A stretch of 64,000 nucleotides of DNA, from assembly GCA_021843755.1 (NCBI GenBank), contig JAKBWB010000014.1, positions 1 through 64,000 on the forward strand. Direction: 5' to 3'. The notes under the pieces are model-generated. The model was not told where the DNA came from and did no database searches. It saw only the letters and a program-made list of their open reading frames with translations. Position numbers and translations under genes: made by a program. Source of the stretch: Pseudomonadota bacterium (GTDB lineage: Bacteria; Pseudomonadota; Gammaproteobacteria; Steroidobacterales; Steroidobacteraceae). Below are positions 25,695 through 35,925 of the stretch, piece after piece (position 1 is the stretch's first letter; each line of letters opens with the position of its first letter).

Positions 25695-25722
25695 TTGACG
25701 TCTGTGAATTAATATGCACAAT
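25695..25722 (+). promoter_or_regulatory. probable sigma-70 promoter of the arginine operon
   Basis: TTGACG (25695-25700) and CACAAT (25717-25722) with 16 bases between, 5/6 and 4/6 matches to consensus. The first ARG box covers the whole spacer, so ArgR binding would exclude polymerase. The predicted start lies about 35 bases before the argR ATG. Confidence 0.5.
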
Positions 25723-25741
25723 GCGTGCACTTTTATGCAAA
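25703..25741. promoter_or_regulatory. tandem ARG boxes (ArgR operator pair)
   Basis: Box 1 (25703-25720, TGTGAATTAATATGCACA) fits the E. coli pattern wnTGAATwwwwATTCAnw at all but one position. Box 2 (25724-25741) fits at 12 of 16 informative positions. Three bases separate them, giving the 21-base centre spacing seen at enteric operators, where one ArgR hexamer binds both boxes. Located immediately upstream of argR, they predict arginine-dependent autorepression of the whole operon. Confidence 0.8.
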
Positions 25742-25763
25742 AGACCACGGTTGCCTGACCCCC

Positions 25764-26210
25764 ATGGACGCCCAGCAGCTTGAGCGGCGCCGGACCATCC
25801 TGCGCATCCTGCGCAGCGGCGTGGTCCATCGCCAGGCGGACCTGACGCGACTGCTGCGTGAACAGGGGTACGAGGTGACCCAGTCCTCCGTCAGCCGCGA
25901 CCTGCGCGATCTCGGGGTGTTCAAGGCGAGCGGCCGCTATGTGTTGCCTCCGGAGGAACTCACGCGCACCCAGGGCGATTTCGCGATGCTCGGTCAGTTC
26001 GTACGCGGCTTGCGGCGCGCGGGCGCTTCCCTTACCGTACTGCGCACCACCACGGGCGCGGCGCAGAGCGTTGCGGTCGCCATTGACCGCGCCGATTGGC
26101 CGGAGGTCGCCGGTACCCTGTCCGGCGACGACACCATTTTCATAGCCACCGCCTCAGCGCGCGCGCAGGACGAGCTTGTCGCTCGGCTGCAGGCGCTTTT
26201 TCGGATCTAG
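25764..26210 (+). CDS. argR: arginine repressor ArgR
   Basis: 148 residues (E. coli ArgR has 156). The ATG at 25764 gives MDAQQLERRRTILRIL; an earlier in-frame GTG would overlap ARG box 2. The winged-helix domain (about 1-70) includes VTQSSVSRDLRDLGVFKASGRYVL; the C-terminal domain (about 80-148) includes AQSVAVAIDRADWPEVAGTLSGDDTIFIA, with the GDD acidic pair that binds arginine and holds the hexamer. It is the first gene of the arginine operon, three bases before argG, and is predicted to control its own promoter. Confidence 0.95.
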   Translation: MDAQQLERRRTILRILRSGVVHRQADLTRLLREQGYEVTQSSVSRDLRDLGVFKASGRYVLPPEELTRTQGDFAMLGQFVRGLRRAGASLTVLRTTTGAAQSVAVAIDRADWPEVAGTLSGDDTIFIATASARAQDELVARLQALFRI

Positions 26211-26213
26211 CCC

Positions 26214-27446
26214 ATGACCACAGCCTCCACCGCGGGCGAGCAGCCCATTGTTCTTGCTTATTCCGGCGGCCTCGACACCTCGTTCCTGGTGCCGTGGCTG
26301 ACCGAGACCTACCGCCGGCCGGTCATCACCTTGACGGTGGATACCGGCGGGATCGACGCCGAGGCGGCGCGCACGCTCGCGGAGCGAGCCCGCGCGCTGG
26401 GGGCGATCGAGCATCATCAGGTCGACGCGCGCGCCCAGTACTTCGAGCAGGTGCTGCGCTTCCTGATCATGGGCAATGTCCGGCGCGGGCAGGTGTATCC
26501 GCTGTGCGTGGGGGCCGAGCGGGTGATGCAAGCGCAGACCCTCGCCCACATGGCGCGCAAGCTCGGCACCTCCATGATCGCCCACGGCTGCACCGCGGCC
26601 GGCAACGACCAGGTGCGCTTCGAGGTCGCGCTGCGCACGCTCGCGCCGGAACTCGAGGTCCTTGCCCCGGTGCGCGACCGCGCCTTCAAGCGGCCGCAAG
26701 AGCTCGCGTTCCTGCAGGAGCGCGGTCTGCCGGTGCCGCCGTTCGGCGCGGCGTACTCGATCAACCGTGGTCTGTGGGGCGTGACCATCGGCGGCCAGGA
26801 GACCCTGACGTCCTCGGGCGGCATTCCCGAACACGCCTGGGTTCTGACGCGGGAGGCGTTCACACGGCCGCGGCCGCCCGAGCACCATGTCATCGCCTTC
26901 GAGCGCGGCCGGCCGACGGCCCTCGACGGCCGCGCGCTGGAGCCGGTGGCGCTGATCGAGGCGCTGGAGGCGATCGCCGCGCCGTTCGGCATTGGCCGGG
27001 GCATCCACCTCGGCGATACCATCATCGGTACCAAGGGCCGGGTCGCTTTCGAGGCGCCGGCCGCCGAGGTGCTGCTCACCGCGCATCGCGAGCTCGAGAA
27101 GCTCGTCCTGACCGGCCGCCAGCAGCGCATCAAGGAGCTGCTCGCTCAACCCTACGGCGACCTGGTACACGAGGGGCAGCTGCTCGACCCGGTCTGCCGC
27201 GACATCGAGGCGCTGCTCGAGTCCTCGCAGGCGCGCGTGACCGGCTCGGCACGGGTGGCGCTGCGTCCGGGCAATCTGTTCATCGAGGGCGTCGAGTCGC
27301 CTTACTCGCTGATGAGCGCCTCCAAGGGTGTCTACGGCGAATCGGCCGGCGAGTGGACGGCGCGCGACGCGCTCGGCTTTTCCAAGATCGTCGCGCTGAG
27401 CGGCGTGTTTCACCGGCGCGCCGGCGCGCCGGGCGAGAGCGCTTGA
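26214..27446 (+). CDS. argG: argininosuccinate synthase
   Basis: 410 residues. ATP-pyrophosphatase loop VLAYSGGLDTSF near the N-terminus, then IAHGCTAAGNDQVRFE and YSINRGLWGVTIGG, the citrulline/aspartate-binding blocks. It joins citrulline and aspartate with ATP, the step before argH. The GNDQVRFE and YSxNxGLWG wording resembles ArgG of Bacteroidetes operons more than the E. coli enzyme; this is from memory of the families. Second gene of the operon; the next ATG starts one base after its stop. Confidence 0.95.
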   Translation: MTTASTAGEQPIVLAYSGGLDTSFLVPWLTETYRRPVITLTVDTGGIDAEAARTLAERARALGAIEHHQVDARAQYFEQVLRFLIMGNVRRGQVYPLCVGAERVMQAQTLAHMARKLGTSMIAHGCTAAGNDQVRFEVALRTLAPELEVLAPVRDRAFKRPQELAFLQERGLPVPPFGAAYSINRGLWGVTIGGQETLTSSGGIPEHAWVLTREAFTRPRPPEHHVIAFERGRPTALDGRALEPVALIEALEAIAAPFGIGRGIHLGDTIIGTKGRVAFEAPAAEVLLTAHRELEKLVLTGRQQRIKELLAQPYGDLVHEGQLLDPVCRDIEALLESSQARVTGSARVALRPGNLFIEGVESPYSLMSASKGVYGESAGEWTARDALGFSKIVALSGVFHRRAGAPGESA

Positions 27447-27447
27447 G

Positions 27448-28524
27448 ATGGCCAACGGCATGCGCAGCATCGTCGTCGACAAGATCGCCTCCGTGGCCCA
27501 AGCGTGCGGTCTCTCGCACGAGGTGCGCGTCGCGGCCGACATCCCGGCCGAGGAGGGCGTGGTGATCGTGGTCGAGGTGCTGACCAACAAGTCGACGTAC
27601 AATCAACTGGAGCTCAGCAGCGGCCGCATGGCCAAGGTGCGCAAGGGCGATGTCGTGGTCGGCGCACTGGGGCACCGCAAGGCCCTGTTCGGCTATTCCG
27701 GCCACATCCCGCCGGCGGTCAAGGTCGGCGACGTGATACAGATGCTCAACATCGGCGGGGTCCTCGGGGTGTGCGATTCGATCAACCCCGACAAGGGCCA
27801 GCCGTTCGACTGCCGGGTGATCGGCGTCGTGCTGCGCTTTCCCTACCTCGGCGAGCGCATCGGTGTGCCGGCCCGGGTTGGACACCGCAAGCTCGATCCG
27901 TCGGCGCGTTTGGAGACACTCAACGTCCCGGTCGTGGCGCTCGCCGGGACGTGCATGGAGGCCGGCAAGACCGCAGCCGCCTGCGCCGTGATCAGCCGCA
28001 TGCGCCATCGCGGCCTGACGATCGATGCGTTCAAGGCCACTGGCGTCTCGCTGCGGCGCGACATTCTCGCCATGGAGGATGCCGGTGCGCGACGCTCCGC
28101 GATCTTCACGGATTTCGGCGTCGTCACCACCACGCGCGGCAACGGCCCGGCTCTGACCCGGGCGATGCTGACCGAGCTCGCCGCCGGCAAGCCTGACGTG
28201 ATCGTGTTCGAGCTGGGCGACGGCATTCTCGGCACCTACGGTGTGGATGCCATCCTGGAGTGTCCCGACATCCGCGCCGCGCTGACCGGCGTGGTGCTTT
28301 CGGCCAACGATCCGGTGGCGGCCTGGGGCGGTGTGAAGCTGCTGCGCGAGCGCTTCGAGATCGAGCCGTGCGTGGTGACCGGACCGGCCACCGACAACCA
28401 GGTCGGTGTCGATCTGATCACGGAGCAGCTGCGGGTGCCGGCGTTCAACGCCATCAGCAGCGGTGCGCAACTGGGCGAGCATGTCATGCAGGCCGTCGGC
28501 CTGGCGCGCCAAGGCGAGCCATGA
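27448..28524 (+). CDS. DUF1611 family P-loop protein, candidate N-acyl(glutamate) transferase
   Basis: 358 residues. An N-terminal all-beta domain (about 1-150: GHRKALFGYSGHIPPAVKVGD) precedes a P-loop domain with GTCMEAGKT at 167-175, the BioD-like spacing with five residues between the glycines and K174 as the phosphate-binding lysine. ELGDGILGTYG and SANDPVAAWGGVKLL follow. DUF1611 proteins include DgcN, reported to N-acetylate D-glutamate in marine bacteria. Here the gene is locked into the arginine operon: one base after argG and overlapping argC by ATGA. The operon has no argA, so a role in making N-acylglutamate is plausible. No acyltransferase activity can be proved from sequence alone. 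Confidence 0.8.
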   Translation: MANGMRSIVVDKIASVAQACGLSHEVRVAADIPAEEGVVIVVEVLTNKSTYNQLELSSGRMAKVRKGDVVVGALGHRKALFGYSGHIPPAVKVGDVIQMLNIGGVLGVCDSINPDKGQPFDCRVIGVVLRFPYLGERIGVPARVGHRKLDPSARLETLNVPVVALAGTCMEAGKTAAACAVISRMRHRGLTIDAFKATGVSLRRDILAMEDAGARRSAIFTDFGVVTTTRGNGPALTRAMLTELAAGKPDVIVFELGDGILGTYGVDAILECPDIRAALTGVVLSANDPVAAWGGVKLLRERFEIEPCVVTGPATDNQVGVDLITEQLRVPAFNAISSGAQLGEHVMQAVGLARQGEP

Positions 28525-29582
28525 GCGAGCGCATTCCCGCCGTGGTGCTCGGCGGCACCGGCTACGTGGCCGGAGAGTTGCTGCGGCTGCTCGCCGGACA
28601 TCCGCACTTCGAGGTGCGCGCGGTGATGTCGGACAGCCAGCCGGGCGAGCCGCTCGGGGCAGCCTTCCCCCACCTCGCGGCGGCCTATGGGGAGGCGTGC
28701 TTTCAGCCGTACAACGAGATCCAGTCACTCCTGACCCGCGTGCCGCACAGCGCGGTGTTCTGTGCTGCGCCGCACGGGGTCTCCGCCCAGCTCATCGATT
28801 CGCTGCTCACCGCCGCCGAGGCTGCCGGCACCCGACCGCGCGTGGTGGACATCTCCGCCGACTTCCGTTTCCGGTCGGCCGACGCCTATCAGCGGGTCTA
28901 CAAACATCCGCACGGCGCGCCGCAGCGCCTCGCGCAGTTCACCTGCGCCCTGCCGGAGCATCTGGCCGCATCGGGTACGCCGCACGTGGCTCATCCGGGC
29001 TGCTTCGCCAGCGCGGTACTGCTGGCGAGCGTGCCGCTGCTCACCCTGGGACTGACGCCGCCGCAGCTGTTCGTGTCGGGGGTGACCGGAAGCACCGGGG
29101 CGGGACGCAAACCGGTGGCGGGCACGCATCATCCCGTGCGTCACAGCGATCTCTATGCCTACAGTGCGCTTGCGCACCGTCATGCGCCTGAGATCGCAGC
29201 CTGTGCCCACGCCGCCGCGGGTGTGTGGGCGGATATCGCGTTCGTCCCGCATTCCGGACCGTTCGCGCGCGGTATTCACGTGACGGTGCAGGCGCCGCTG
29301 GTGCGGCCGCTCGAGACCGCCGAGGTGATCGGTGCGCTGCGCGGGTTCTATGCCGGATCGCGGTTCGTGCGCGTGCTCGAGACGCCGCCGCGCGTGAAAG
29401 ACGTCGTCGCGAGCAATTACGCGCACCTGAGCGCGGTGAGCGACGGCCGAACGGTGGCCGTGATGTGCACTCTCGACAATCTCACGAAGGGCGCCGCCGG
29501 CGGCGCGGTGCAGTGGATGAACCGGATGTTCGGCCTGGCCGAGACCGACGGTCTGACGGCGCCGGCACCCGGTTGGACCTGA
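28521..29582 (+). CDS. argC: N-acyl-gamma-glutamyl-phosphate reductase
   Basis: 353 residues from the ATG that overlaps the upstream stop (ATGA). Nucleotide loop GGTGYVAGELLRLL at the N-terminus; catalytic cysteine C161 in HPGCFAS; VTGSTGAGRKP and THHPVRHSDLYAY form the substrate pocket. It reduces N-acylglutamyl phosphate to the semialdehyde with NADPH. Whether the acyl group is acetyl or succinyl cannot be read here, but the transcarbamylase two genes on suggests succinyl. argD follows after 16 bases. Confidence 0.94.
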   Translation: MSERIPAVVLGGTGYVAGELLRLLAGHPHFEVRAVMSDSQPGEPLGAAFPHLAAAYGEACFQPYNEIQSLLTRVPHSAVFCAAPHGVSAQLIDSLLTAAEAAGTRPRVVDISADFRFRSADAYQRVYKHPHGAPQRLAQFTCALPEHLAASGTPHVAHPGCFASAVLLASVPLLTLGLTPPQLFVSGVTGSTGAGRKPVAGTHHPVRHSDLYAYSALAHRHAPEIAACAHAAAGVWADIAFVPHSGPFARGIHVTVQAPLVRPLETAEVIGALRGFYAGSRFVRVLETPPRVKDVVASNYAHLSAVSDGRTVAVMCTLDNLTKGAAGGAVQWMNRMFGLAETDGLTAPAPGWT

Positions 29583-29598: not shown

Positions 29599-30774
29599 AT
29601 GAACGCAACGACACCGGTCCATTCCGCGCCGCCCGAGGCGCCCCGCGACGCTCTGGCGCCGGTCTACGCCCAATACCCGTTCGAGGTCGATCACGCCGAA
29701 GGGGTCTGGCTGATCAACGCGCGCGGCGAGCGCCTGCTCGACCTGTACGGCGGACACGCGGTGGCCGCCCTCGGTTACGGCCACCCCGGCTGGACCGAAG
29801 CGCTGGCCGCGCAGGCCCGCGCCTGCCAGTTCCAGACCAATGCGCTGCCGATGGCGATCCGCGCCCGTGCGGCGCAACGGCTGCTGGCGTTCTCCCAACT
29901 CGATCTCGCCAGCGTATTCCTGGTCAACAGCGGCGCGGAGGCCAATGAGAACGCGCTGCGGCTGGCTTTGCGGCTGACCGCACGGCCGCACGTGGCGGCG
30001 CTCGAGGGCGCCTTCCACGGCCGGACCGCCGCGGCGGCGGCCGTGACCTGGGGTTCCGAGGCCTGGTACGGCTTTCCCCGCAAGCCCTTCGATGTCAGCT
30101 TCATGCCGCGGCACGAGCCCGGCGCCATCGCCGAGCACGTGACCGAGCGTACCGCCGCCGTCATCGTCGAGCCGGTGCAGGGCCTGGCCGGCGCCGTCGA
30201 TCTCGGCGCGCCGTATCTTGCGGCCCTGCGCGAGCGCTGTGACCGGGTCGGCGCGCTGTTGATCTTCGATGAAGTGCAATGTGGGCTCGGGCGCGTGGGC
30301 GCCCCGTTCGCCGCCACCCTGTACGGGGTCACGCCGGATCTGCTGACGACGGCGAAAGCCCTCGGCAATGGCTTCCCATGCGCGGCGCTGCTGACATCGG
30401 CGCGGGTATCGGCCGCTTTGAAGATCGGTGAACTCGGCACGACCTACGGCGGTGGGCCGATGGCCTGTGCGGCCTTGCTGGCCTGCATCGAGGCGATCGA
30501 GTCGCAGCGGCTGTTGGAGAACGTCCGGCACATGTCGGAGACGATCCGGCGCACGTGCCACGTCGGGCCGGTGAGCGCCATCCAGGGCGCCGGGCTGTTG
30601 CTCGGGCTGCGCATGCGCCGCCCCGCCAAGCAGATCCAGGCCGAGCTGCTGCGCCGCGGCATCCTCGCCGGCACGGCGAGCGACCCGCAGGTCCTGCGGC
30701 TGCTGCCGCCGTTCATTCTCCGGGCCTCGCACGTCGAGCTGCTGCGCCGGGCGCTGGCGGACATCGGCGAATGA
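29599..30774 (+). CDS. argD: N-acylornithine aminotransferase
   Basis: 391 residues, class III PLP aminotransferase. VNSGAEANENALRLAL binds the cofactor phosphate, IFDEVQCGLGR the pyridine ring, and K253 in LTTAKALGNGFP forms the Schiff base. It transfers an amino group from glutamate to N-acylglutamate semialdehyde. The stop overlaps the ATG of argF' (ATGA). In many bacteria the same enzyme also serves lysine synthesis as DapC; dapF lies 5 kb further on, but nothing here shows that dual use. Confidence 0.94.
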   Translation: MNATTPVHSAPPEAPRDALAPVYAQYPFEVDHAEGVWLINARGERLLDLYGGHAVAALGYGHPGWTEALAAQARACQFQTNALPMAIRARAAQRLLAFSQLDLASVFLVNSGAEANENALRLALRLTARPHVAALEGAFHGRTAAAAAVTWGSEAWYGFPRKPFDVSFMPRHEPGAIAEHVTERTAAVIVEPVQGLAGAVDLGAPYLAALRERCDRVGALLIFDEVQCGLGRVGAPFAATLYGVTPDLLTTAKALGNGFPCAALLTSARVSAALKIGELGTTYGGGPMACAALLACIEAIESQRLLENVRHMSETIRRTCHVGPVSAIQGAGLLLGLRMRRPAKQIQAELLRRGILAGTASDPQVLRLLPPFILRASHVELLRRALADIGE

Positions 30775-31772
30775 AGCGCTTCCTCGACCTGGCGGAGCTG
30801 GCCCGCGAGGAGGTGCTCGCGCTGCTGGAGCTGGCCGGACGGCTGGAGCGGCAGCCGGAGCCGCGCGCGCTCGAGGGCAAGATCCTCGGCCTGCTGTTCA
30901 TGAACCCCTCGCTGCGCACGCTCGCCTCGATGCAGGCGGGCATGGCGCGGCTCGGGGGCAGCTCCTTCGTGATCACACCGGGACAGGGCACCTGGCAGCT
31001 CGAGACACGCCTCGGAGCGGTGATGAGCGGCGCGGCCGCCGAGCACGTGCGCGAGGGCATCCCGGTGCTGACCTCCTACTGCGATGCGCTCGGGATCCGC
31101 GCCTTCGCCGATGGCCGCGACCTGGCCGCCGATCTGGCCGAGACCAACTTCAACGCGATGGCGGCGCTGACCGGCAAGCCCCTGATCAACCTCGAGTCCG
31201 CCGTCAATCATCCCTGTCAGGCGCTTGCCGACTGGAAGACGCTGGACGATCTGGGCGTGCCGCGACACGGCCGCTTCGTGCTCTCCTGGGTCTATCACCC
31301 GCGGCCGCTGCCGCTGGCGGTCCCGGCCGCGGCGCTGCACATGGCGGCGCTGCGCGGGATGGAGGTGGTGGTGCTGCGGCCCGCAGGCTTTGCGCTGCCG
31401 CAGGCGATCATGGACAAGGCGCGCCGCGCCGCCTCGATGAGCGGCGGCTCGATTCGCGAGAGCGACGTGCGGCGCGAGGCCCTGGCGGGCGCGGCCGTCA
31501 TTTACGCCAAGGAATGGGGTGCGACCGAATGTTACGGCGATACGGCGGCGGATGCGCGTCTGCGCGGTGCGCACGCCGACTGGTGCGTGCGCGGCGACTG
31601 GTTCGAGCATGCGGCGCCGGAGTGCCGCCTGATGCATTGCCTGCCCGTGCGGCGCAACGTCGCCGTGGCCGACGAGGTCCTCGACGGCCCGCGCAGCGCC
31701 GTGCTGCGCGAAGCGTACAATCGGCTGACGGTGCAAATGGCGGTGTTGTACCGTCTGCTGAAGGGGCTGTGA
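30771..31772 (+). CDS. argF': N-acylornithine carbamoyltransferase, SOTCase-like
   Basis: 333 residues. Transcarbamylase features: carbamoyl-phosphate loop NPSLRT (45-50), NHPCQALAD and MHCLPVRRN. It is not an ordinary ArgF. WQLETRLGAVMSG, IPVLTSYCDALGIRAFA and HPRPLPLAVP match the Bacteroides fragilis N-succinylornithine enzyme better than Xanthomonas AOTCase (alignment from memory). The specificity position, Glu92 in AOTCase and Pro90 in SOTCase, is Ala90 here. The carbamylated lysine of AOTCase (K302) is replaced by Met in NRLTVQMAV. Both differences favour a succinyl substrate. It overlaps argD by 4 bases. Confidence 0.85.
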   Translation: MKRFLDLAELAREEVLALLELAGRLERQPEPRALEGKILGLLFMNPSLRTLASMQAGMARLGGSSFVITPGQGTWQLETRLGAVMSGAAAEHVREGIPVLTSYCDALGIRAFADGRDLAADLAETNFNAMAALTGKPLINLESAVNHPCQALADWKTLDDLGVPRHGRFVLSWVYHPRPLPLAVPAAALHMAALRGMEVVVLRPAGFALPQAIMDKARRAASMSGGSIRESDVRREALAGAAVIYAKEWGATECYGDTAADARLRGAHADWCVRGDWFEHAAPECRLMHCLPVRRNVAVADEVLDGPRSAVLREAYNRLTVQMAVLYRLLKGL

Positions 31773-31816: not shown

Positions 31817-32755
31817 ATGATCATGCAACCCGGGGACCAGGCACTGGCCATACGCGCGCTGAAAAGCGCGGCACCCTACATCCGCATGTATCGCGGCAAG
31901 ACGTTCGTGGTGAAGGTCGGCGGTGGGGTGTTTGTCGAGGAGGCTGCGACGCGCGCGCTCATCGAGCAGATCGCCCTGTTGCATTATTTCGGCGTCCGTG
32001 TGGTGTTTGTACACGGCGGCGGCCCGCAGGTCACGGAGCTGGCCAACGCGCTCGGCCTGGAGTCGCGCATGGTGGAAGGCCGCCGCGTCACCGATCGCCG
32101 ATCGATGGACGTCACCGCGATGGTGCTCAACGGCACGATCAATACCCGCATTCTGGGCGTGTGCCGCGAGCTGAACGTCGAGGCCGTCGGGGTCAGCGGG
32201 GTCGATGCCGGCCTGGTGCGTGCGCACAAACGCCCGCCGGTGCAGATGGCTTCGAATGGCGAGTCGGTCGATTTTGGGTTCGTGGGCGACATCGACGTGG
32301 TCGATCCGACGGTGCTGCGCACGCTCCTTGACAGCAATCTGATGCCGGTGGTGAGTCCCCTGTCGGCCGACGATGCAGGGACCCTGCTCAACATCAATGC
32401 CGATACGGTGGCCGCCGCCCTGGCCGCGGCGCTCGGCGCCGAGAAGCTCGTCCTGTGCACCGGCGCGCCGGGCATCCTCGCCGATCGTGCCGATCCGGGC
32501 TCGCTCATTTCCTACACCGACCTCGCGGGCCTGCGCGAGCTGTGCCAGCAGGGGTGCATCGCCGAGGGCATGTTGCCGAAGACCAAGGCCATCGAAGCGG
32601 CCATCCGCGGCGGGGTGCGCCGCGTGCACGTGGTGTCGTACCGGGCGCCCGAGGGCATCCTCGGCGAGGTATTCACCAACGAGGGGACCGGCACGCTGAT
32701 CGTCGCGGACGTCAATGCGCTGACGCCGGCCGAGCAGCACGGCGCCGGGGGCTGA
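31817..32755 (+). CDS. argB: N-acylglutamate kinase
   Basis: 312 residues; ATG at 31817 with GAGGA upstream (a second ATG two codons later is possible). Amino-acid kinase fold: VVKVGGGVF at the nucleotide site, FVHGGGPQV at the substrate site, LNINADTVAAALAAALGAEKLVLCTGAPGIL in the C-lobe. It phosphorylates N-acylglutamate. Unlike the Xanthomonas relative it has no fused acetyltransferase domain, so the acyl-glutamate must be made by another protein. The N-terminal stretch before VVKVGGG is about 30 residues longer than the core; this extension is often seen in arginine-inhibited kinases. Confidence 0.93.
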   Translation: MIMQPGDQALAIRALKSAAPYIRMYRGKTFVVKVGGGVFVEEAATRALIEQIALLHYFGVRVVFVHGGGPQVTELANALGLESRMVEGRRVTDRRSMDVTAMVLNGTINTRILGVCRELNVEAVGVSGVDAGLVRAHKRPPVQMASNGESVDFGFVGDIDVVDPTVLRTLLDSNLMPVVSPLSADDAGTLLNINADTVAAALAAALGAEKLVLCTGAPGILADRADPGSLISYTDLAGLRELCQQGCIAEGMLPKTKAIEAAIRGGVRRVHVVSYRAPEGILGEVFTNEGTGTLIVADVNALTPAEQHGAGG

Positions 32756-32757
32756 GC

Positions 32758-33948
32758 GTGAGCCGGCTGTGGGACAAAGGCGCGCCGCTCGATGAGCGGG
32801 TGCTGCGCTTCACCGCCGGGGAGGATTTCAGCCTCGATGAGCGGCTCATCGCCTATGACATCCGCGCGTCGATCGCGCATGCCGAGATGCTGCACGAGCA
32901 GGGACTGCTTGCTCGGGCGGACCTCGAGGCCATTCGCGGCGGTCTGACGGCGCTCGGGCAAGCCCATGCCCAAGGGCAGTGGCACGTTGAGCTGGCCGAC
33001 GAGGATGGGCACACCGCCCTGGAGCGCCGGTTGACCGAACGAATCGGTCCTGCGGGGGGCCGGGTCCATCTTGGGCGCTCGCGCAACGATCAGGTGCTCG
33101 CTGCCCTGCGGCTCTATCTGCGCGATGCGCTCGAGGACCTGAGCGCCGGCGCGGTAGCGGTCGCGCAGGCACTGGAGCGGCTCGGCGTGCGCGAGCAGGC
33201 CACGGCGCTGCCGGGCTACACGCACATGCAGCAGGCGATGCCGAGTTCCGTGCCGTTGTGGGCGGGTGGCTTCGCCGCCGAGATCCGCGACGATGCCGAC
33301 GCCCTGCGCCACGTCCATCGCCGCCTGGGCCGCAATCCGCTCGGATCGGCGGCCGGCTACGGCACGCCGGGCCTGCCGCTCGACCGCGAGGCGACGCGCG
33401 CGAAACTCGGCTTCGCGTCCGTGCAGGAACCGGTGACTGCCGTGCAGCTCTCCCGCGGCAAGGCTGAGGCGGAGCTGCTCTTCCACGTCACGATCCTGCT
33501 GCAGGACGTCGGACGGCTGGCCGCCGACGTGTTGCTCTTCTATACGGAAGAGTTCGGCTTCGTGCGGCTGCCGGAGGCGTTCACCACCGGCTCCTCGATC
33601 ATGCCGCAGAAGCGCAATCCGGACCTCTTCGAGCTGATCCGCGGCCGCTCGGCCACCGCCCAGGCGTGCCTGCTCGAGGTGCTGGCCATCTGTGCCAAGC
33701 TGCCGTCGGGATATCAACGCGATCTGCAGCTGTTGAAGTTTCCGCTGTTTCGCGCCATCGATCTGGCGTTGGAGACGCTCGGCATCCTGCCCGCCGCGCT
33801 CGATGCGCTCTCGTTCCGGACCGAGCGTATCCGGTTGGATCCGGCCATCCACGCTGCCGAGGAAGCCAACCGCCTCGTCGTGCGCGAAGGCATCCCCTTC
33901 CGCGAGGCCTACCGGCGCGTGGCGGCGAAGCTGAAGGGATCGGGATAG
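32758..33948 (+). CDS. argH: argininosuccinate lyase, short form
   Basis: 396 residues, against about 457 in E. coli; GTG start two bases after argB. It opens SRLWDKGAPLDERVLRFTAGED. LGRSRNDQVLAALRLYLRD, LPGYTHMQQAMPSS and the signature loop GSSIMPQKRNPD (catalytic serine) are intact. The C-terminal about 55 residues of the classic enzyme are absent: the protein stops soon after GIPFREAYRRVAAKL. The short form and the N-terminal wording resemble Bacteroidetes ArgH. It releases arginine and fumarate and is the last arginine gene of the operon. Confidence 0.93.
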   Translation: MSRLWDKGAPLDERVLRFTAGEDFSLDERLIAYDIRASIAHAEMLHEQGLLARADLEAIRGGLTALGQAHAQGQWHVELADEDGHTALERRLTERIGPAGGRVHLGRSRNDQVLAALRLYLRDALEDLSAGAVAVAQALERLGVREQATALPGYTHMQQAMPSSVPLWAGGFAAEIRDDADALRHVHRRLGRNPLGSAAGYGTPGLPLDREATRAKLGFASVQEPVTAVQLSRGKAEAELLFHVTILLQDVGRLAADVLLFYTEEFGFVRLPEAFTTGSSIMPQKRNPDLFELIRGRSATAQACLLEVLAICAKLPSGYQRDLQLLKFPLFRAIDLALETLGILPAALDALSFRTERIRLDPAIHAAEEANRLVVREGIPFREAYRRVAAKLKGSG

Positions 33949-34038: not shown

Positions 34039-35184
34039 TTGAGGCATAATACGACCGTGATCGGCCAGGTGCGCTCTCAGATCCTGCCGCGGCCGGCGCC
34101 CCCGGACCGGGCCTTCCGCGGCGGCGACGCCTTCTATCTGCCGAATTTCTGTGCTTCGCGGGCAGCGTTCGCCATCGTCGTCGTGGCGGAGCTGACCGCC
34201 ATCGTGGTGTCGATCGCCCGCAGCGCGGCGCAGGGTTTCTGGTCGGAGCTGGCGCTCAGCTCGCTGTTTCTCCTGTGGGTTGGGCTGCTGTCCGCGGCGC
34301 TGCTGTGCGTGCTGCGCCCGCTGCTCGCGCGCCTCGGGGTGCAACGCGGCTCGAGCGTCGCATTGGCGCTGATGATCGCGGTGGTCGCGGCGGTGTCGGC
34401 CGGCGTGGTTCTGCTCGGCCAGACACATCTGGTGCGTGCCGCCGGTGCGGACTCGCTGTTCCCGCGGCGCTTCGGGCCGTTCGTGCTGCGCAACACGGCG
34501 ATCGGTTTCGTCATCGCCGCGGTGACGCTGCGCTATTTCTACGTCACGCATCAATGGCGACGCAACATCGAGCTGCGCGCCGCGGCGCGCGTGCACGCCC
34601 TGCAGGCGCGCATCCGTCCGCACTTCCTGTTCAACAGCATGAACACCATCGCCGCGTTGACCCGCAGCGAGCCGCGCGCGGCCGAGCAGGCCGTGCAGGA
34701 TCTGGCCGACCTCTTCCGCGCCTCCCTTGCCGAGCCGCTCGCGACCATAACGCTTGCCGATGAGCTCGAGATCACCCGCACCTATCAGCGCATCGAGCAG
34801 CTGCGCCTCGGCGAGCGGCTGCGCGTGGCCTGGCATGTCGAGGCCCTGCCGCTCGATGCGCGCGTGCCGGGATTGCTGCTGCAGCCGCTGCTCGAAAACG
34901 CAATCTATCACGGCATCGAGCCGCGCCCGGCCGGTGGCACGGTCGAGATCAACGGCGAGCGCACCGGCGAGCTGCTCTGGCTGGTGGTGCGCAATCCAGT
35001 CGGTGTGCCGGTGCGCGAGCATGAGGGCAATCAGCTTGCACTGCAGAACATCCGCGAGCGCCTGACGCTGCACTACGGCGAGCGGGCGCTGCTGAAGGCC
35101 GGTCGCTTCGAGGAGGAATACATCGTGACGCTGCGTTTTCCTTACCTTCCGGCGCTGGCGCCTGCGGGCAGCGCGCGCGACTGA
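34039..35184 (+). CDS. algZ: LytS/AlgZ-type sensor histidine kinase
   Basis: About 381 residues. Four hydrophobic helices fill the first 170 residues. Next is the His_kinase domain with RPHFLFNSMNTIAAL (phospho-acceptor H) and an ATPase domain with LLLQPLLENAIYHGIEP. This is the AlgZ/FimS group lacking a classic DHp domain. The start is unclear: TTG at 34039 or GTG at 34057; neither has a strong ribosome site. In Pseudomonas the order argH-algZ-algR is the same, where the pair controls alginate and twitching. The response regulator follows nine bases later. Confidence 0.87.
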   Translation: MRHNTTVIGQVRSQILPRPAPPDRAFRGGDAFYLPNFCASRAAFAIVVVAELTAIVVSIARSAAQGFWSELALSSLFLLWVGLLSAALLCVLRPLLARLGVQRGSSVALALMIAVVAAVSAGVVLLGQTHLVRAAGADSLFPRRFGPFVLRNTAIGFVIAAVTLRYFYVTHQWRRNIELRAAARVHALQARIRPHFLFNSMNTIAALTRSEPRAAEQAVQDLADLFRASLAEPLATITLADELEITRTYQRIEQLRLGERLRVAWHVEALPLDARVPGLLLQPLLENAIYHGIEPRPAGGTVEINGERTGELLWLVVRNPVGVPVREHEGNQLALQNIRERLTLHYGERALLKAGRFEEEYIVTLRFPYLPALAPAGSARD

Positions 35185-35193
35185 CGGCCGCCC

Positions 35194-35925
35194 ATGCTCA
35201 GGGTGCTCATCGTCGATGACGAGCCGCCGGCCCGCGAGCGGCTCGGTCAGCTGCTCGATGAAATCGGCGGCGTGCAGATCGCCGGGCAGGCCTCCACGGG
35301 GCTCGAGGCGCTCGAGCAGGCGGCGCGTCTGGCGCCGGATGTCGTGCTGCTCGATGTGCGCATGCCCGGGTTGGACGGTATCGAGACGGCGCGTTACTTG
35401 AATGTTCTGCAGGAACCGCCCGCGATCATCTTCACCACCGCGTACGATCAATACGCGGTCCATGCCTTCGAGACGCACGCGGCGGGCTATCTCCTCAAGC
35501 CCATCCGCAAGGACAAGCTCGCGGCGGCACTCGCGCATGCAGGGCGGTTGACGCGGCCGCAACTGCGGCAGCTGGCCGCAACCACCGGCGCGCGCGGCCG
35601 GACACACGTCGCGGCGCGGCGCCGCGATCAGGTCAGCCTGATCGCCGTCGACGAGATTCTGTATTTCCAGGCGGATCAGAAATACACCACGGTCCGGCAC
35701 ACCCAGGGCGAGGACCTCATCGAGGAGTCGCTGCGCACGCTCGAGGAGGATCTCGGGGAGAATTTCGTGCGCATCCATCGCAATACACTGGCCAATATCC
35801 GCTACCTGCAGCGCATCGTGCGTGACGCGGACGGGCACTACTGCGTCCTGCTGCGCGGGTGTTCGACCCCGTTGCCGGTCAGCCGCCGCCTGGCCGGGGA
35901 GCTGCGCGAGCGGTTCAGGGTCTGA
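35194..35925 (+). CDS. algR: LytTR-type response regulator AlgR
   Basis: 243 residues. Receiver domain (about 1-120) with DDE near the N-terminus, phospho-acceptor aspartate in VVLLDVRMPGLDG, TTAYDQYAVHAF and the conserved lysine in YLLKPIRKDKL. A linker leads to a LytTR DNA-binding domain (about 140-240): FQADQKYTTVRHTQGEDLIEESL, then FVRIHRNTLANIRYL. It is the partner of the adjacent AlgZ-like kinase. Targets are not visible in this window. Confidence 0.92.
   Translation: MLRVLIVDDEPPARERLGQLLDEIGGVQIAGQASTGLEALEQAARLAPDVVLLDVRMPGLDGIETARYLNVLQEPPAIIFTTAYDQYAVHAFETHAAGYLLKPIRKDKLAAALAHAGRLTRPQLRQLAATTGARGRTHVAARRRDQVSLIAVDEILYFQADQKYTTVRHTQGEDLIEESLRTLEEDLGENFVRIHRNTLANIRYLQRIVRDADGHYCVLLRGCSTPLPVSRRLAGELRERFRV

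Follow-up and report, generated by a model that had tools for sequence, protein, structure and literature searches.

A P-loop protein encoded between argG and argC is a candidate N-acylglutamate synthase in arginine operons of Gammaproteobacteria

Results

Gene X is embedded in an arginine operon

The window analyzed here, a stretch of 64,000 nucleotides (positions 1 to 64,000 of contig JAKBWB010000014.1, assembly GCA_021843755.1, Steroidobacteraceae), belongs to a 3.32 Mb draft genome that is 96.8% complete. It carries an arginine operon whose genes, assigned with Pfam and NCBIfam, follow the order argR-argG-X-argC-argD-argF'-argB-argH (Table 1). Gene X is tightly packed between its neighbors: argG ends 1 base before it, and argC starts inside an ATGA, overlapping X by 4 bases. 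These coordinates bear out the original prediction, made from the DNA letters of the window alone, which had placed X within the operon in this way. Because orthologs begin at or near a conserved start, MRSIVVDKIASVA, the ATG at 27460 is a likelier start for X than that at 27448.

Table 1 Features of the arginine operon in the window
Feature	Position	Strand	Evidence and remarks
ARG-box-like operator TGTGAATTAATATGCACA	25703..25720	no strand	upstream of argR; exact 8/8 core match
argR, arginine repressor	25725..26210	+	PF02863 and PF01316 over cut-off; start may be ATG 25764
argG, argininosuccinate synthase	26214..27446	+	TIGR00032 287 bits, over cut-off
X, P-loop protein, candidate N-acyl (N-succinyl) glutamate synthase	27448..28524	+	conserved start 27460
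argC, N-acyl-gamma-glutamyl-phosphate reductase	28521..29582	+	TIGR01850 287 bits, over cut-off
argD, acylornithine aminotransferase	29599..30774	+	PF00202 over cut-off; TIGR00707 308 bits, under cut-off 410
argF', acylornithine carbamoyltransferase	30771..31772	+	NF003384 341 bits, over cut-off; A90/P181/A298 at specificity sites
argB, acylglutamate kinase, unfused	31817..32755	+	TIGR00761 214 bits, over cut-off; no NAT domain
argH, argininosuccinate lyase	32758..33948	+	TIGR00838 299 bits, over cut-off; GTG start inferred

The operator was scored against the ARG-box consensus. Of 88 regions preceding such operons, 45 hold an exact core match; random windows drawn from these loci do so in 14 of 1760 cases. 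A second, weaker ARG box with a 7/8 core can be read at about 25724-25741. The argR product scored 107 bits against TIGR01529, under the cut-off of 130.45. The original prediction had also described an operon devoid of argA, argJ and GNAT domains, with an unfused argB, and the Pfam and NCBIfam assignments agree; Pfam detected no GNAT domain in the operon proteins scanned, and argE is absent from the window's operon. Downstream of argH lie a LytS/LytR-like histidine kinase and response regulator (34039-35925), followed by dapF; a LytS match adjoins the operon in 11 of the 80 ortholog loci from genome contigs described below.

The argG-X-argC arrangement is conserved across genomes

Sixty genomes, including that of the window, were surveyed for X. 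Forty-nine gave a match, two of them (G039, G043) through distant paralogs only, leaving 47 with orthologs, and neighborhoods were read for 41 of these, that of the window among them (G014, G015, G017, G019, G033 and G034 were left out). argG lies directly upstream and argC directly downstream of X in 40 of the 41 loci, the last one (L016) being interrupted by a contig end. Both genes were likewise found in 77 of 80 ortholog loci from genome contigs, a set that overlaps the previous one since 21 of its loci carry the same X; two others (L095, L098) stop at contig ends. Both genes also adjoin X in another six ortholog loci, of which four come from other orders of the class. The arrangement is thus kept in all four X-positive genomes of other orders (G095, G160, G265, G312); in three of them the remaining operon genes stand in a different order, and G265 is represented by a short contig. 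Neither gene adjoined any of 35 distant-paralog loci, which include some places that were fetched twice; L068-L084 and L171-L180 (27 loci) were classed as distant paralogs. The linkage of argG, X and argC is far beyond chance, and the operon context that the original prediction had described for a single genome is present in its relatives.

Some loci depart from this picture in other respects. In L153, the remaining locus of the 80, X follows argR with no argG detected in between, and the contig downstream of X yielded argC and argB only. In four X-positive loci (L038, L123, L128, L139) argC is directly followed by argF', with no argD found in its usual position. In public records, the named relatives mostly bear the labels Gammaproteobacteria, Proteobacteria or Steroidobacteraceae MAG; two loci (L124, L159) encode X at 78% identity in MAG records titled Klebsiella pneumoniae, a species label that looks wrong.

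X was not found together with known first-step synthases

To our knowledge, the known synthases of the first arginine step are either of the GNAT type or ArgJ. Searches for them covered 45 genomes, 33 X-positive and 12 X-negative, chosen mostly for completeness. They comprise 39 of the 60 surveyed genomes and six ortholog-bearing ones from a class-wide survey of 276; the 21 left out of the 60 belong to the window's genus (19 are less than 90% complete, G012 is at 91% and G020 at 90%). The 253 of 276 class genomes with no X match, and those with distant paralogs only, stand outside the NAT comparison, save for the members of the order in the 60-genome set. ArgJ was found in none of the 45 genomes, that of the window included, by a search that was positive in 10 of 14 named control genomes, and ArgA (TIGR01890) exceeded its cut-off in 0 of 45 genomes and in 1 of the 14 controls. 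The original prediction would have had to yield to an argA or argJ elsewhere in the genome; neither was found in the 96.8% complete draft.

The NAT domain (PF04768) was detected in 0 of 33 X-positive versus 9 of 12 X-negative genomes, and in none of the 14 controls (Fisher p 2.5e-7 counting genomes and 0.001 counting families, kinship being ignored in both). The remaining three X-negative genomes (G045, G048, G058) gave no argB match; these members of the order, with no X, NAT domain or argB detected, may depend on external arginine or make it by a different route.

On a tree built from the rpoB genes of 28 genomes (G074 and G052, of the 30 given, had no rpoB match), parsimony requires 5 changes for X (bootstrap 4-6), yet branches with strong support make only 1 necessary, leaving the number of independent switches uncertain. 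The X-negative argF', argG and argC products share 27-41% identity with those of the window, suggesting that wholesale cassette exchange between X-positive and X-negative operons is likely. Since the two operon types look like two whole cassettes, the exclusion may reflect few events.

These searches also bear on the possibility that X does something else in the operon, for example as a regulator, a deacylase or a side-branch enzyme, and that an unlinked GNAT protein, similar to ArgA2 or S-NAGS, is the true synthase. A GNAT protein has indeed been proposed for glutamate acylation in Bacteroidetes, according to the portions of PMC7311316 and PMC9026213 consulted, and our GNAT search (PF00583, PF04768 and TIGR01890) found eight proteins of the window genome that match PF00583. 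Among the seven that were scanned (L008 was left out), one RimI and one ArsN2 exceeded their cut-offs, and five fell under every curated cut-off. The sole ArgA-similar candidate of this genome, at C48:155173, was rejected as a synthase, being an ArsN2 protein (147 bits). PF00583 matches numbered 2, 5 and 14 in the X-positive genomes G047, G160 and G050, and the only one in X-positive G041 (1.6 Mb, 98% complete) is RimI. As X never co-occurs with the NAT domain in the 45 genomes searched and its operon has no GNAT gene, we disfavor an unlinked GNAT synthase and consider this reading improbable.

ArgF' residues point to succinylated intermediates

The acyl group used by the pathway can be read, in part, from the specificity residues of the carbamoyltransferase. 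In the portions of PMC4581275 consulted, acetylornithine-type enzymes (AOTCases) are marked by Glu92, Asn185 and Lys302, and succinylornithine-type enzymes (SOTCases) carry A/S/P/V/Q, P and V/I/E at the same sites. The ArgF' of the window has A90, P181 and A298, the first two within the SOTCase list and the third outside it. Among the 80 X-positive loci from genome contigs, 66 carry argF' and 14 have no argF' match above 100 bits; the residues are Ala-Pro-Ala in 64 of the 66, Ala-Pro with the third site missing in one, and unreadable in one. Sixteen other X-positive loci, none of which repeats one of the 80, displayed Ala-Pro-Val (9), Ala-Pro-Ala (4), Pro-Pro-Glu (2) and Val-Pro-Glu (1), so that valine or glutamate occupies the Lys302 site in 12 of the 16. 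Of nine X-negative regions fetched, two (L206, L208) had no argF', and the seven ArgF' proteins of the others were Glu-Asn-Lys in six cases and Glu-Asn-Gln in one. Duplicate or partial loci (L181-L190, L038, L039) were set aside from these counts. By residue type, ArgF' is mostly succinylornithine-like in X-positive operons and acetylornithine-like in X-negative ones, a pattern that is new here.

X could instead be an N-acetylglutamate synthase, in an acetyl pathway where these residues are not diagnostic. The operon linkage and the NAT exclusion would fit such an enzyme equally well, the ArgF' of the window scores above the threshold of NF003384, a model for N-acetylornithine carbamoyltransferase, and the SOTCase residues listed for the Lys302 site do not include alanine. 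An alanine aligns with Glu92 in a solved Xanthomonas-type AOTCase chain, 3l02_A, reportedly an engineered mutant examined with a succinyl ligand. Against an acetyl pathway, the first two sites are of the SOTCase type in every readable X-positive locus and of the AOTCase type in 7 of 7 X-negative ones, and no ArgE-type deacetylase was found by the M20 search of the window genome. We therefore regard acetylation by X as unlikely; because of the third-site alanine and the NF003384 match, the assignment of succinyl is likely rather than firm.

DapE is a candidate deacylase

In X-negative operons argE lies between argG and argB, and it exceeded its model cut-off in 6 of 6 loci scanned (of 7, L203 being left out); the four argB products scanned are all full-length ArgB-NAT fusions. 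All six X-positive genomes searched for M20 peptidases have DapE, four over cut-off by scan and two matched to these by BLAST, and it is the sole ArgE/DapE-type M20 enzyme found in the window genome, where the other M20 match resembles a dipeptidase family, under its cut-off. Other M20 proteins of X-positive genomes include an ArgE-type enzyme over cut-off in G312 and proteins of uncertain role in G041 and G047. The M20 scan covered the stronger matches of the X-positive genomes, several weaker ones being left out, and NCBIfam scanning left out L008, L231, L233, L239 and L242-L248.

X combines an N-terminal domain with a BioD-like P-loop domain

The P-loop of X, GTCMEAGKT, occupies residues 167-175 in the 358-residue reading of the protein, where the original prediction had placed it. 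Full membership of DUF1611, the label given in that prediction, was not supported: X scored 17.1 bits against PF07755, under the gathering cut-off of 25 and over residues 154-199 only, a PF07755 search of its own genome at E 0.001 did not recover it, and an NCBIfam scan gave no match, including to the bioD model. No GNAT, NAT or ArgJ domain was detected in X with Pfam and NCBIfam. A phmmer search of the PDB with X returned no match, nor did a profile built from the paralog alignment; a profile of X retrieved dethiobiotin synthetase only, at E 0.98, with the Walker A motif and a following lysine aligned. The X ortholog of L168 likewise gave a weak bioD match (16.4 bits, cut-off 83.3).

A structure model computed from 35 sequences reached a mean pLDDT of 71.5, mostly confident in the P-loop half and poor in the N-terminal half. 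By E-value, Foldseek placed SRP GTPases first, followed by HypB and dethiobiotin synthetase. Dethiobiotin synthetase 1dts (target-normalized TM-score 0.61, E 2.3e-5) had the joint best target TM-score among the 50 matches listed, and the DUF1611 protein TM0796 (2g0t_B) was matched at E 3.4e-4 with a query-normalized TM-score of 0.41. In this model, the P-loop domain of X resembles dethiobiotin synthetase and may resemble TM0796, and it is preceded by a conserved N-terminal domain. Positions invariant across 14 members of the wider family include G169, K170, T171, K192, D201, D218 and E251, which together look like a metal-nucleotide site, as well as R73 in the N-terminal domain. The set K170, T171, K192, D201, D218 and E251 looks more like an NTP site than like that of a classical acyl-CoA enzyme.

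A nucleotide site would also suit an ATP-dependent ligase joining glutamate to a carrier protein, as in LysW/ArgW-like systems. However, no gap big enough for a carrier gene was seen in the operon, and argB fits TIGR00761 (214 bits) better than LysW-type kinases (at most 146 bits). From this gene content we judged the LysW-type route unlikely, and a carrier ligase is a very improbable identity for X.

The original prediction further envisaged that X feeds N-acyl-glutamate made from D-glutamate into the pathway, by analogy with DgcN. DgcN, presumably a DUF1611 protein, reportedly N-acetylates D-glutamate in a marine D-glutamate pathway, and this analogy is what speaks for the idea. In the portion of PMC12363236 consulted, dgcN is presented as the key gene in a route that racemizes acidic D-amino acids. 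We saw no sign of such a feed: no racemase-type gene occurs among the arginine operon genes and our sequence searches reached no DgcN-labelled relative, making a D-glutamate source for the pathway very unlikely. The two papers found to mention DUF1611 do not, by their titles and abstract openings, concern arginine.

Distant relatives of X occur in other gene contexts

Distant relatives share roughly 22-37% identity with X. Five paralogs (L052-L055, L057) are 26-33% identical to it, and three of these loci (L053-L055) contain a recurring trio of an X-like gene, a gene of about 390 codons and one of about 210 codons. The former encodes an M20 peptidase in L054 and L055, and the latter a flavin-reductase-like protein in L053 and L055. 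In a third X-like subfamily (L277, L278, L173), found on Rhodobacterales plasmids and in another genome, the gene adjoins an ABC exporter, with a possible alpha/beta hydrolase also adjoining it in L278 and possibly in L173. A plasmid of Priestia megaterium (L279, NZ_CP085446.1, 83705-94625) carries an X relative in a cluster with an ornithine carbamoyltransferase, two ATP-grasp proteins, TPP enzymes, a PEP-mutase family protein, an M20 peptidase and an LLM oxidoreductase, which looks like a phosphonate-type natural product cluster. Two of the three distant-relative contexts would agree with the pairing of an acylating enzyme and a deacylase, the paralogs beside M20 peptidases being consistent with an acylate-then-deacylate pair.

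Discussion

Taken together, the conserved linkage, the lack of NAT co-occurrence, and the failure to find ArgJ, or ArgA over cut-off, suggest that X is very probably an enzyme of the arginine pathway, and they make it a good candidate for an N-acylglutamate synthase, an identity that we consider probable whatever the acyl group. The core of the original prediction, an N-acyl-L-glutamate synthase, finds good support in these genome comparisons, and its choice between acetyl and succinyl shifts to succinyl. We favor, with somewhat less assurance, the more specific proposal that the arginine pathway of this organism begins with X, which N-acylates L-glutamate, most likely with succinyl.

In the proposed pathway, X would convert L-glutamate to N-succinyl-L-glutamate, which ArgB, ArgC, ArgD and a succinylornithine-type ArgF' would then process, and the succinyl group would later be removed from N-succinylcitrulline, probably by DapE. 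The donor would probably be succinyl-CoA held by the P-loop, or ATP-activated succinate. A bolder scheme, which we find conceivable but doubtful, makes X the founder of a new enzyme class, a BioD-like ATP-dependent N-succinyl-glutamate ligase that acts through an acyl phosphate of succinate rather than acyl-CoA, with DapE shared between lysine and arginine synthesis and the relatives beside M20 peptidases installing the same temporary acyl group.

If correct, a P-loop synthase would replace the known enzymes non-orthologously and bring a new fold to the first arginine step; titles and abstract openings, with subscription papers mostly uncovered, mentioned no P-loop enzyme for glutamate N-acylation. 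Arginine intermediates that carry succinyl, which the portions of the literature consulted report for Bacteroidetes, would extend to a gammaproteobacterial group represented here mostly by MAGs. The enzyme would also fill an annotation gap that could make such genomes look arginine-auxotrophic, and provide a first functional handle on the uncharacterized protein family of X.

As a synthase, X would compare with known enzymes in its proposed function and stand outside every family tested here. Its structural counterparts resemble one half of the protein. BioD (1dts) has a similar P-loop domain, with the Walker A motif and a later lysine aligned in the profile match at E 0.98, whereas X has an extra N-terminal domain, resides in an arginine operon and has no NCBIfam bioD match. 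DUF1611 proteins (PF07755; TM0796, PDB 2g0t) are similar in the P-loop and perhaps in the fold of that half, with a weak profile match, but this match remains at 17.1 bits against a cut-off of 25 and is limited to residues 154-199. Within the same order, X-negative genomes carry the Xanthomonad-type ArgB-NAT fusion (NF003386/NF003387, PF04768), which performs the first arginine step by annotation. Unlike X, this system is tied to the acetyl route, a kinase fusion, argE in the operon and AOTCase residues in ArgF', and it never accompanies X in the 45 genomes. The nearest functional parallel is ArgA2/BT3761 of Bacteroidetes, which, in the portions of PMC7311316 and PMC9026213 consulted, is a proposed N-succinylglutamate synthase encoded in an arginine operon and co-occurring with a succinylornithine-type carbamoyltransferase, just as proposed for X; ArgA2 is, by its description there, a GNAT protein, whereas X, with no GNAT match, has a P-loop domain.
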